Of a stretch of 64,000 nucleotides of DNA, positions 47,268-49,797 are shown in pieces; positions within the stretch are counted from its first letter, which is position 1; the number at the start of each line of letters is the position of its first letter. Origin of the DNA: Archangium sp. (GTDB lineage: Bacteria > Myxococcota > Myxococcia > Myxococcales > Myxococcaceae); assembly GCA_030695565.1 (NCBI GenBank), contig JAUYRZ010000048.1:1-64000 (forward strand), read 5' to 3'. A program made the translations under genes and the position numbers. Under the pieces are notes generated by a model, which was given only the letters and a program-made list of their open reading frames with translations, ran no database searches and was not told where the DNA came from.

Positions 47268-47300
47268 CCCCTCTCCCTTCGGGAGAGGTCAGGGTGAGGG
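47268..47300. repeat. CTCTCCC/GGGAGAGG palindromic element, copy 6
   Basis: CCCCTCTCCCTTCGGGAGAG then GTCAGGGTGAGGG, in the 42-base gap between convergent glgC and the sulfur-fusion gene. A bidirectional terminator role is plausible here. Confidence 0.75.
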
Positions 47301-47302
47301 CC

Positions 47303-49747
47303 TCAAAGACACTTCAAGTTGGTGTTCAGCGCCTCGCGCAGATTCGACGGAGGCGGCATGCCCACCTGGTTGGCGGCCATCGCGTCGACGAACTCCTGCG
47401 CGGTCTTCGGCTGCAGGCGGGGGTTCTGCTTCTTTTCCCGCCCCAGGGTGCTCGCCTGGCGGCCTTCGTAGTCGTGCGCCGGCAACACGATCGTGTCGTC
47501 GGGCAACGCCGCGAGCAGCTTCTGCAGGCTCTCGAAGAGCGACGACGAGTTGCCGGTGGGCAGATCGGTACGGCCCACCGCGCCGATCAACAAGGTGTCA
47601 CCGGTGAGCACGCGGCCCGGCAGCACCAGGCAGATCGCGTCGTGCGTGTGACCCGGCGTGGCCACCACGCCGATCTTCAGCGAGCCCAGCGCGATCTCAT
47701 CACCATCCACCAGGCCGCGATCGACACACGGCGCCGGTGAGTTGGCGTGCATCAACATCTTCGCGCCCGTCAGATCCTTCAAGCGCACCGAGCCCGACAG
47801 GTGATCCGCGTGGGTGTGCGTCTCGATGGTGTAGCGCAGCGTGTAACGGCGCTCGGTGAGCAGGTCGATGTACGACTCCACGTGCCCGCGGACGGGATCG
47901 ACCAGCACCGCCTCACGGGTGGCGCGATCGGCGATCAAATAGCTGCGGCACGGCTCGTTGCCGTTGAGCACCTCGAAGTCGTAGCCGAGCTCGGTCGCGT
48001 CGGCGGCCACGCTGGTCTCCGCCTCTTGATGCGAGGCCTCCATCCACCGGTCCGCGCAACGCCCGGCGAACTCCGCGCTGACGGTGTCGCCCTTCACGCG
48101 GTACTGGCCCTTCCACTTGCGATCGCGGACCCGCTCGACGAACTCCAGCAGACGATCGACGTCGGTCTCGTCGTTGTAGAGACCCACGCTGCAGCGCACC
48201 GCGCCGGTCGGGCCACCCTTGCCCGTTCCCCGGCCCAGCAGGCGATCCACGTAGATGTGCGCGCAGAAACGGCCGTTGCGCACGGCGATGGCGCCCTCTT
48301 CGGACAACACCGCGGCGGTGAGCAGATCAGAGACGCCGTCGATGTTGAACGCGGCCACGCCGAGCCGCTTCTCTGCGTCGCCCGGCCCGTACACCTTCAC
48401 GCCGTCGAGCTTCTGCATGCCATTGAGCAGCCGCTTCATCAGCTTCACTTCGTGCGCGCGCACCTCGGGCAGCCCGATCGACTGGAGGAACTGGAGTGCC
48501 TTCGCCATGCCCACCACGCCCGCGATGTTCGGGGTGCCGCCGTGGTGACGATCGGGGGCCGGCAGGTACTCCGCGCTGCGCGGGGTGACCTGGGTCGCCG
48601 TGCCGCCGCCCGCGATGTACGGGGGCGCCTCGTTCATCAACGCGCGCGGGCCGTAGAGGAACCCGGCTCCGAACGGGGCGTAGGCCTTGTGACCTGCGCC
48701 CGCGAGGAAGTCGATGTGCTCGGGGTGATCGAACGGTTTCACGTCGATGGGCATGCGCGCCAGCGCCTGCGCCGCATCGACGAGGATCAACGCGCCCTGC
48801 TCGTGCGCCATGCGCGCGATCTTCGCGATGTCGGGCATGAACCCGGTGACGTTGGAGCCCGCGGTGACGGCGACCAGCTTCACCTCGTTGTTCCGCAGCA
48901 ACTCCTCCACGTGATTGAGGTCGAGCTCGCCCTGATCGTTGACCCGCGCGCGCAGCACCGAGCCGCGGCTGCGATGCGGCAGCTCGTTGCTGTGGTGCTC
49001 CATCTCGGTGGTGAGCACCTTGCCCGGATGCTCGGCCATCACGTGGCTGGCGAGGTCGATCGCCTGGGTGGTGTTGTTGGTGAAGCACACCGCGCCCCGC
49101 TTGAGCTCGGCTCCGATGAAGTCGGCGACGATGTAATAGGCCTCGTCGAACCGCTCGGTGGCCTTCCGCGAGAGGTGATGATTGGCCCGGTGAATGTTGG
49201 CGTACTCGCGCGAGACGAACTCCGTGTACGCGTTGAGCACCGAAGCGGGCGCGTGCGTGCTGGCGGCGTGATCCATGTAGACCAGCGGCCGCTCGCCTGA
49301 ACCGAGCACGGGCACCCGGCGGCCGACGATGGCGAACTCTTCACGCACGGCCTGCCAGTCGAGCTTGGCGCCGGGGATCCGGCAGACCGCGCTCGAACCC
49401 GCGATGGGCAGCCCGAGGTGACGCCACCGCTCGATGCCACCGGCGAGGTTCTTCACCTGCGAGTAGCCCATCTTCATCAGCGTGTCGGCCACCAGCGCCG
49501 AGCGGTTGCCGGTCGCGCAGTACACCACCACCGGCGTGTCGCGATTGGCGATGTGTTCGTGCACGTGCTTCTCGACGAGACCGCGGGGCAGCAGCACCGC
49601 GCCGTTGAGGGTCTCATTGCCGATCTCGTCGGCCTCGCGCACGTCGAGCAGCACGGGGCCGCTCTTCGCGGTGTCCTCGCAGGAGATCTCGGGAACGCGG
49701 GAGAGCGCGTCTTTGACGAAGTCTTTGTAGGACCAGGGCTGGCTCAT
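47303..49747 (-). CDS. Three-domain fusion: rhodanese, class V aminotransferase (cysteine desulfurase-like), persulfide-dioxygenase-like MBL
   Basis: This 814-residue protein links three sulfur-metabolism folds. Rhodanese (about 20-115) has the catalytic loop VVYCATGNRS with C77. A class V PLP domain (about 140-545) has SufS-like features: GAGHK (K354) and RNGRFC (C495, at the persulfide-carrying position). An MBL domain (about 585-795) has THTHADHLSG (H644, H646, D648, H649), PGH (H700), GDT (D717) and PAHD (H758), with GAVGRTDLP as in ETHE1-type persulfide dioxygenases. One plausible flow is sulfur mobilised from cysteine or an analogue, carried as a persulfide and oxidised. Order of events, and whether the PLP domain acts on cysteine, is unproven. 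Confidence 0.9.
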   Translation of the reverse strand: MSQPWSYKDFVKDALSRVPEISCEDTAKSGPVLLDVREADEIGNETLNGAVLLPRGLVEKHVHEHIANRDTPVVVYCATGNRSALVADTLMKMGYSQVKNLAGGIERWRHLGLPIAGSSAVCRIPGAKLDWQAVREEFAIVGRRVPVLGSGERPLVYMDHAASTHAPASVLNAYTEFVSREYANIHRANHHLSRKATERFDEAYYIVADFIGAELKRGAVCFTNNTTQAIDLASHVMAEHPGKVLTTEMEHHSNELPHRSRGSVLRARVNDQGELDLNHVEELLRNNEVKLVAVTAGSNVTGFMPDIAKIARMAHEQGALILVDAAQALARMPIDVKPFDHPEHIDFLAGAGHKAYAPFGAGFLYGPRALMNEAPPYIAGGGTATQVTPRSAEYLPAPDRHHGGTPNIAGVVGMAKALQFLQSIGLPEVRAHEVKLMKRLLNGMQKLDGVKVYGPGDAEKRLGVAAFNIDGVSDLLTAAVLSEEGAIAVRNGRFCAHIYVDRLLGRGTGKGGPTGAVRCSVGLYNDETDVDRLLEFVERVRDRKWKGQYRVKGDTVSAEFAGRCADRWMEASHQEAETSVAADATELGYDFEVLNGNEPCRSYLIADRATREAVLVDPVRGHVESYIDLLTERRYTLRYTIETHTHADHLSGSVRLKDLTGAKMLMHANSPAPCVDRGLVDGDEIALGSLKIGVVATPGHTHDAICLVLPGRVLTGDTLLIGAVGRTDLPTGNSSSLFESLQKLLAALPDDTIVLPAHDYEGRQASTLGREKKQNPRLQPKTAQEFVDAMAANQVGMPPPSNLREALNTNLKCL

Positions 49748-49766: not shown

Positions 49767-49797
49767 CCCTCACCCTTGGGGAGAGGGTCAGGGTGAA
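49767..49797. repeat. CTCTCCC/GGGAGAGG palindromic element, copy 7 (diverged)
   Basis: CCCTCACCCTTGGGGAGAGG then GTCAGGGTGAA. The left arm differs (CTCACCC). It lies between divergent starts (fusion gene and GT22), 20 bases from the fusion start. Confidence 0.6.

Follow-up and report, generated by a model that had tools for sequence, protein, structure and literature searches.

A single gene in the analysed window, a 64,000-nucleotide stretch of an Archangium sp. contig, encodes a protein in which a rhodanese domain, a SufS-like cysteine desulfurase domain and a type I persulfide dioxygenase (PDO) domain follow one another in one chain (Table 1). As far as we found, this is a real, conserved and apparently undescribed combination of known enzyme types. 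Its best-supported reading, to which we give a rough probability of 0.55, is that of a relay oxidising cysteine sulfur to sulfite.

Table 1. Features of the fusion gene and its product (window coordinates; residue numbers refer to the protein).
Feature	Coordinates	Strand	Evidence or remark
Fusion protein ORF	47303..49747	minus	uninterrupted, ATG at 49747, TGA at 47303, 814 aa; orthologues in three other genera
Rhodanese domain, residues 1-122, loop CATGNRS	49382..49747	minus	Pfam PF00581 57 bits; nearest solved structure 6mxv
C77, predicted rhodanese persulfide carrier	49517..49519	minus	residue check and alignment
SufS-like cysteine desulfurase domain, residues 128-545	48113..49366	minus	Pfam PF00266 305 bits; Z about 51, rmsd 1.5 to SufS structures
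K354, PLP Schiff-base lysine, HK motif	48686..48688	minus	invariant in 38 desulfurase rows
C495, predicted desulfurase persulfide cysteine, RNGRFCAH	48263..48265	minus	invariant in 38 desulfurase rows
Linker, residues 546-587	47987..48112	minus	551-580 disordered; two-domain relatives terminate within linker
Type I PDO domain, residues 588-814	47306..47986	minus	180 bits to 9rhq, 175 to 4ysb (M. xanthus), 142 to BpPRF, 129 to human ETHE1
HTHADH, residues 644-649; H644 predicted iron ligand	47801..47818	minus	homologues of AcPDO H57, H59, D61, H62 (PMC6060420)
H700, predicted iron ligand	47648..47650	minus	alignment
D717, predicted iron ligand	47597..47599	minus	alignment
H758, predicted second-shell residue, equivalent to AcPDO H171	47474..47476	minus	alignment; PMC6060420
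C813, equivalent to AcPDO C224, cysteine strictly conserved in type I PDOs	47309..47311	minus	alignment; PMC6060420

The preliminary description had proposed three sulfur-handling domains in this order, with their key residues kept. Pfam matches well above cut-off to Rhodanese (residues 29-109), Aminotran_5 (156-533) and Lactamase_B (598-758) within the intact reading frame bear out the order, on the minus strand, which had been left out, and every residue named (C77, K354, C495, H644, H646, D648, H649, H700, D717 and H758) is present. A search for the same architecture recovered the in-frame three-domain chain from three other genera in independent assemblies. The fusion is thus found in four independent genomes, ruling out an assembly or frameshift artefact. 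Codon-position GC of the gene (0.68/0.44/0.91) is similar across the three domains. In a comparison with three orthologues, the third codon position was the most variable in every domain, and all three parts therefore look to be under protein-level selection. An AlphaFold2 model built on a 66-row alignment had a mean pLDDT of 89.8 and a pTM of 0.70, with a single disordered stretch, located in the linker; an alignment of six close orthologues gave a pLDDT of only 49. The fold search covered residues 128-548, the identities of the rhodanese and dioxygenase domains resting on sequence.

The rhodanese active-site signature CxxGxR (PMC8931425) appears at the N-terminal end as C77-A-T-G-N-R82, and is invariant in 16/16 rhodanese rows of the alignment. 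In the PLP domain, the catalytic set of the SufS/CsdA type is kept: K354, H251 (over PLP), C495 and R518 were found in 38/38 rows, and R490 in 37/38. The domain is alike in fold and catalytic residues to the SufS structures of B. subtilis (6kfz), E. coli (1jf9) and Brucella (4w91), but identity is about 33%, and SufS has an HHC cysteine motif and a shorter post-cysteine segment. Calling the middle domain SufS-like therefore holds for its fold and catalytic residues but not for its family score or motifs. Against NCBIfam TIGR01979 (SufS) it reached 332 bits where the curated cut-off is 475 and the window genome's own SufS gives 536, and it carries RNGRFCAH for RxGHHCAQP and HHGGTPN for FEAGTPN. 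Its nearest in-order relative is a stand-alone desulfurase-like subfamily with an RHGCFCAH motif, followed at three loci (L070, L071 and L072) by a conserved gene of about 245 aa. From C495 to R518 there are 23 residues, more than in SufS rows (compare the short loop without the 12-residue group I insertion). Group I desulfurases have a longer flexible cysteine loop and hand sulfur directly to several partners (PMC8931425); by analogy, the longer segment after C495 may likewise serve direct hand-over.

The predicted iron ligands of the C-terminal MBL domain, H644, H700 and D717 (AcPDO H57, H113 and D130), are invariant in 25/25 MBL rows. Its substrate-site or second-shell residues R726, D728, H758, Y760 and R777 match R139, D141, H171, Y173 and R190, which, with C224, are functional residues of AcPDO (PMC6060420), and C813 is conserved in 4/4 fused proteins. 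A glyoxalase II identity was rejected because the top PDO-like entry reached 180 bits and the best solved glyoxalase II only 80, and because D728 matches a PDO residue. M. xanthus PDO (4ysb) and human ETHE1 (4chl) have the family, iron ligands and C-terminal cysteine in common with this domain, but they are stand-alone enzymes with an FQ loop where the fusion has LP: the DFQxG loop of the GSH pocket is here DLPTG. At the position of AcPDO K212, the fused proteins have S, Q, A or R by a reading of the alignment by hand, a basic residue in only 1/4 orthologues. The loop bearing this lysine is variable among type I PDOs (PMC11507549), and for this reason neither a basic residue nor the FQ loop was treated as defining type I. 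Together, the LP loop and the lack of a fixed basic residue at the K212 position suggest that GSSH may not be the substrate.

We counted close relatives of the fusion at E 1e-100 in 96 Myxococcaceae genomes and found them in eight. Four carry the three-domain chain (the window genome, the Archangium MAG G008 at L029, G028 at L030, and G017; 70-73% identity), and four (the complete genome G033, G080, G081 and G026) carry rhodanese and desulfurase only. The two-domain proteins end with the tail MEATKD or MEASPDGSQPS, with no dioxygenase adjoining. The three domains are thus fused in four genomes, but the dioxygenase is missing from the chain in some relatives, indicating that the core unit is the rhodanese-desulfurase. 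Widening the search to 195 Myxococcota genomes brought in a single further two-domain relative, in G191, outside Myxococcaceae. A single scan of 84,980 species with exact peptide patterns, which distant fusions would escape, returned no further fusion, and a plasmid search returned only desulfurase-only relatives. In the rhodanese-desulfurase tree, G026 and G191 contribute two-domain proteins that branch outside the three-domain set, while those of genus g12 are nested within it, as the sister group of G008 (100/98, 96/94). Probably, then, the two-domain core is the older, with a single gain of the dioxygenase and its subsequent loss in g12; support is lower at the outer forks (81/97), making this history a reading of the tree rather than a proof.

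The DLPTG loop also marks a clade of stand-alone PDOs limited to genera g8 and g12 (ten genomes). In raw genome counts that ignore kinship, a DLPTG PDO occurs in 7/8 of the family's rhodanese-desulfurase genomes (four fused, three separate) and in 7/88 of the remaining genomes; G026 has its nearest relative (L096, 86/90). No genome among the 96 has both a fused and a separate copy. Recent fission as the origin of the separate g12 copies is unsupported, as they group with those of g8. In six genomes (L105-L110) the stand-alone gene has no evident sulfur genes alongside, and glycerol kinase-like genes recur nearby in some. MBL hydrolase genes upstream of or near sufC-sufS-iscU-like genes were seen in Acidimicrobiia (L041, L045, L046 and L047); considered as a split version of the fusion, they were dropped, being of another MBL kind with a GGPG motif.

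Biosynthesis draws on desulfurases, whereas sulfide is cleared by persulfide dioxygenases. A fusion of the two suggests a dedicated route that oxidises cysteine sulfur and bypasses free sulfide. The natural fusion also argues for cooperation between cysteine desulfurases and ETHE1-type dioxygenases, a link worth seeking where the parts are separate. In the open-licence literature, outside of which many journals lie, we found neither a published fusion of desulfurase and persulfide dioxygenase in one protein nor this domain order with a SufS-like middle, in agreement with the preliminary description, to which no such case was known. The COG1104 group is, we assume, the desulfurase group of IscS and NifS. 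It was via this group that the CD-Rhd fusion of Pseudorhodoferax sp. (WP_056898193.1) was found, which can draw on DTT, GSH or beta-mercaptoethanol when it desulfurates cysteine, and which transfers persulfide to a protein acceptor (PMC8931425). Like the present chain, it unites cysteine desulfurase and rhodanese with both cysteines kept, but its desulfurase comes first and its rhodanese last, with no dioxygenase, whereas the order here is reversed and the desulfurase SufS-like. BpPRF of Paraburkholderia phytofirmans (5ve3-5ve5) couples a type I PDO to a rhodanese and is related to the present MBL domain (Table 1); by contrast, its PDO comes first and its rhodanese last, it has no PLP domain, and its loop is DFQ rather than DLP. 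CstB of Staphylococcus aureus, a type III PDO-rhodanese, likewise detoxifies sulfide with a dioxygenase and a sulfurtransferase on a single chain; it is without a desulfurase and of another PDO type (PMC11507549).

The fate of the sulfite is suggested by relatives. In G026 (SSF57), the two-domain gene overlaps a gene for a TauE-family sulfite exporter (161 bits) by ATGA, and the two are probably translated together. In G017, G033 and G191, a TauE gene lies less than 2 kb from another type I PDO gene. No sulfite oxidase of the Oxidored_molyb family, the one family sought, was found in the window genome, which makes export the likelier fate. Elsewhere in that genome (contig C15, L004, 1044-3395), a cluster of rhodanese, Blh-like dioxygenase and rhodanese genes has a divergent TauE exporter gene alongside. 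As for thiols, a homologue of plant-type glutamate-cysteine ligase is encoded on contig C22 (L126, 1219-2601; 364 bits, below its cut-off). For the second step the genome showed only RimK-like ATP-grasp proteins and no clear glutathione synthetase, and the cell may use gamma-glutamylcysteine instead of glutathione.

We infer the substrates, direction of sulfur flow and purpose of the relay, whose course from amino-acid sulfur through persulfide to sulfite the preliminary description had put forward, as follows. The PLP domain would convert L-cysteine to alanine and take up its sulfur as a persulfide on C495, from which the sulfur would move to C77 of the rhodanese domain and on to a small thiol, glutathione or gamma-glutamylcysteine. 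At the C-terminal iron site, held on a flexible 30-residue tether, the resulting thiol persulfide would react with O2 to give sulfite and return the thiol, and a TauE exporter would release the sulfite. Cysteine sulfur would in this way be burned without free sulfide, which could help proteolytic predators with a high cysteine intake. PDOs convert GSSH and O2 to GSH and sulfite (PMC12856154), and with desulfurase, rhodanese and PDO on one chain the simplest outcome would be alanine and sulfite from cysteine. In Bacillus licheniformis, a cluster of SQR and PDO is required for growth on cysteine-rich feathers (PMC9918477), indicating that cysteine feeding can make persulfide clearance necessary; a predatory myxobacterium would, by analogy, benefit from it. 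Because the modelled dioxygenase sits on a disordered tether, transfer through a rigid channel is less probable than carriage by a diffusible thiol persulfide or by a domain that swings. A less likely variant is a single-chain cysteine-to-sulfite enzyme whose desulfurase, sulfur carrier and dioxygenase hand the sulfur on directly, perhaps from a protein persulfide straight to the iron site with no free thiol carrier, so that neither free sulfide nor free persulfide arises.

Several results favour the relay: 1) the key residues are invariant over the rhodanese, desulfurase and MBL rows; 2) PDO-specific residues extend beyond the shared MBL motif (R726, D728, Y760, R777 and C813); 3) the fused copy is the sole type I PDO of the window genome at E 1e-25; 4) fused and separate DLPTG PDOs are distributed in a complementary way; 5) the exporter gene overlaps the two-domain gene in G026; and 6) a CD-Rhd fusion that occurs in nature consumes cysteine with GSH as reductant and passes persulfide to a protein (PMC8931425). 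Counting against it, the probable loss of the dioxygenase in one genus means that its fusion is not essential. The relay reading is also weakened by the LP loop, the variable K212 position and the want of a clear glutathione synthetase, as well as by the isolation of the gene. On one side lies a convergent sugar-nucleotide transferase gene, presumably glgC-like, and on the other a divergent membrane protein gene; neither in the window nor in those three-domain relatives whose surroundings were read do sulfur genes adjoin it, and a search for a conserved operon around it found none.

The two-domain core might instead serve biosynthesis, its persulfide sulfur going into thionucleosides, cofactors or protein persulfides, with the dioxygenase as an overflow valve that trims the excess; sulfur supply for other products was the alternative named in the preliminary description. 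This is possible, if rather improbable: the core is apparently the older part and occurs with no dioxygenase attached, and the Pseudorhodoferax fusion hands sulfur to a protein acceptor (PMC8931425), but the window genome also encodes a true member of the SufS family, with a rhodanese after it, the exporter overlap in G026 points toward sulfite, and no acceptor gene lies near the fusion gene. We think it quite unlikely that the PLP domain acts on another substrate, such as cysteine sulfinate or selenocysteine, and that the chain is no cysteine desulfurase relay. The score below the SufS cut-off, the divergent motifs and the longer post-cysteine segment would fit such an activity, but the PLP lysine, loop cysteine and substrate-site arginines are all retained, and an attached rhodanese makes most sense with a persulfide product. 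Least probable is thiosulfate handling, in which the rhodanese would swap sulfur between thiosulfate and a thiol persulfide for the dioxygenase to burn, with the desulfurase as a side input: PDO-Rhd fusions such as the type I BpPRF exist (PMC11507549), and thiosulfate is a substrate of the rhodanese domain in the Pseudorhodoferax fusion, but that fusion prefers cysteine (PMC8931425) and the rhodanese here travels with the desulfurase, not the dioxygenase, as the two-domain relatives attest.

Two further observations concern the window genome. On contig C29 (L002, 1-1436), a SufS-family desulfurase followed by a rhodanese reaches 790 bits (cut-off 800) against the model for family 2A encapsulin cargo, even though the contig end cuts it. 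The palindromic repeat CCTCTCCCNAAGGGNGAGGG has 62 exact-pattern copies in the genome, compared with none for the reversed pattern; two of them flank the fusion gene in the same orientation, just past its stop (window 47269-47288) and just ahead of its start (49767-49786).
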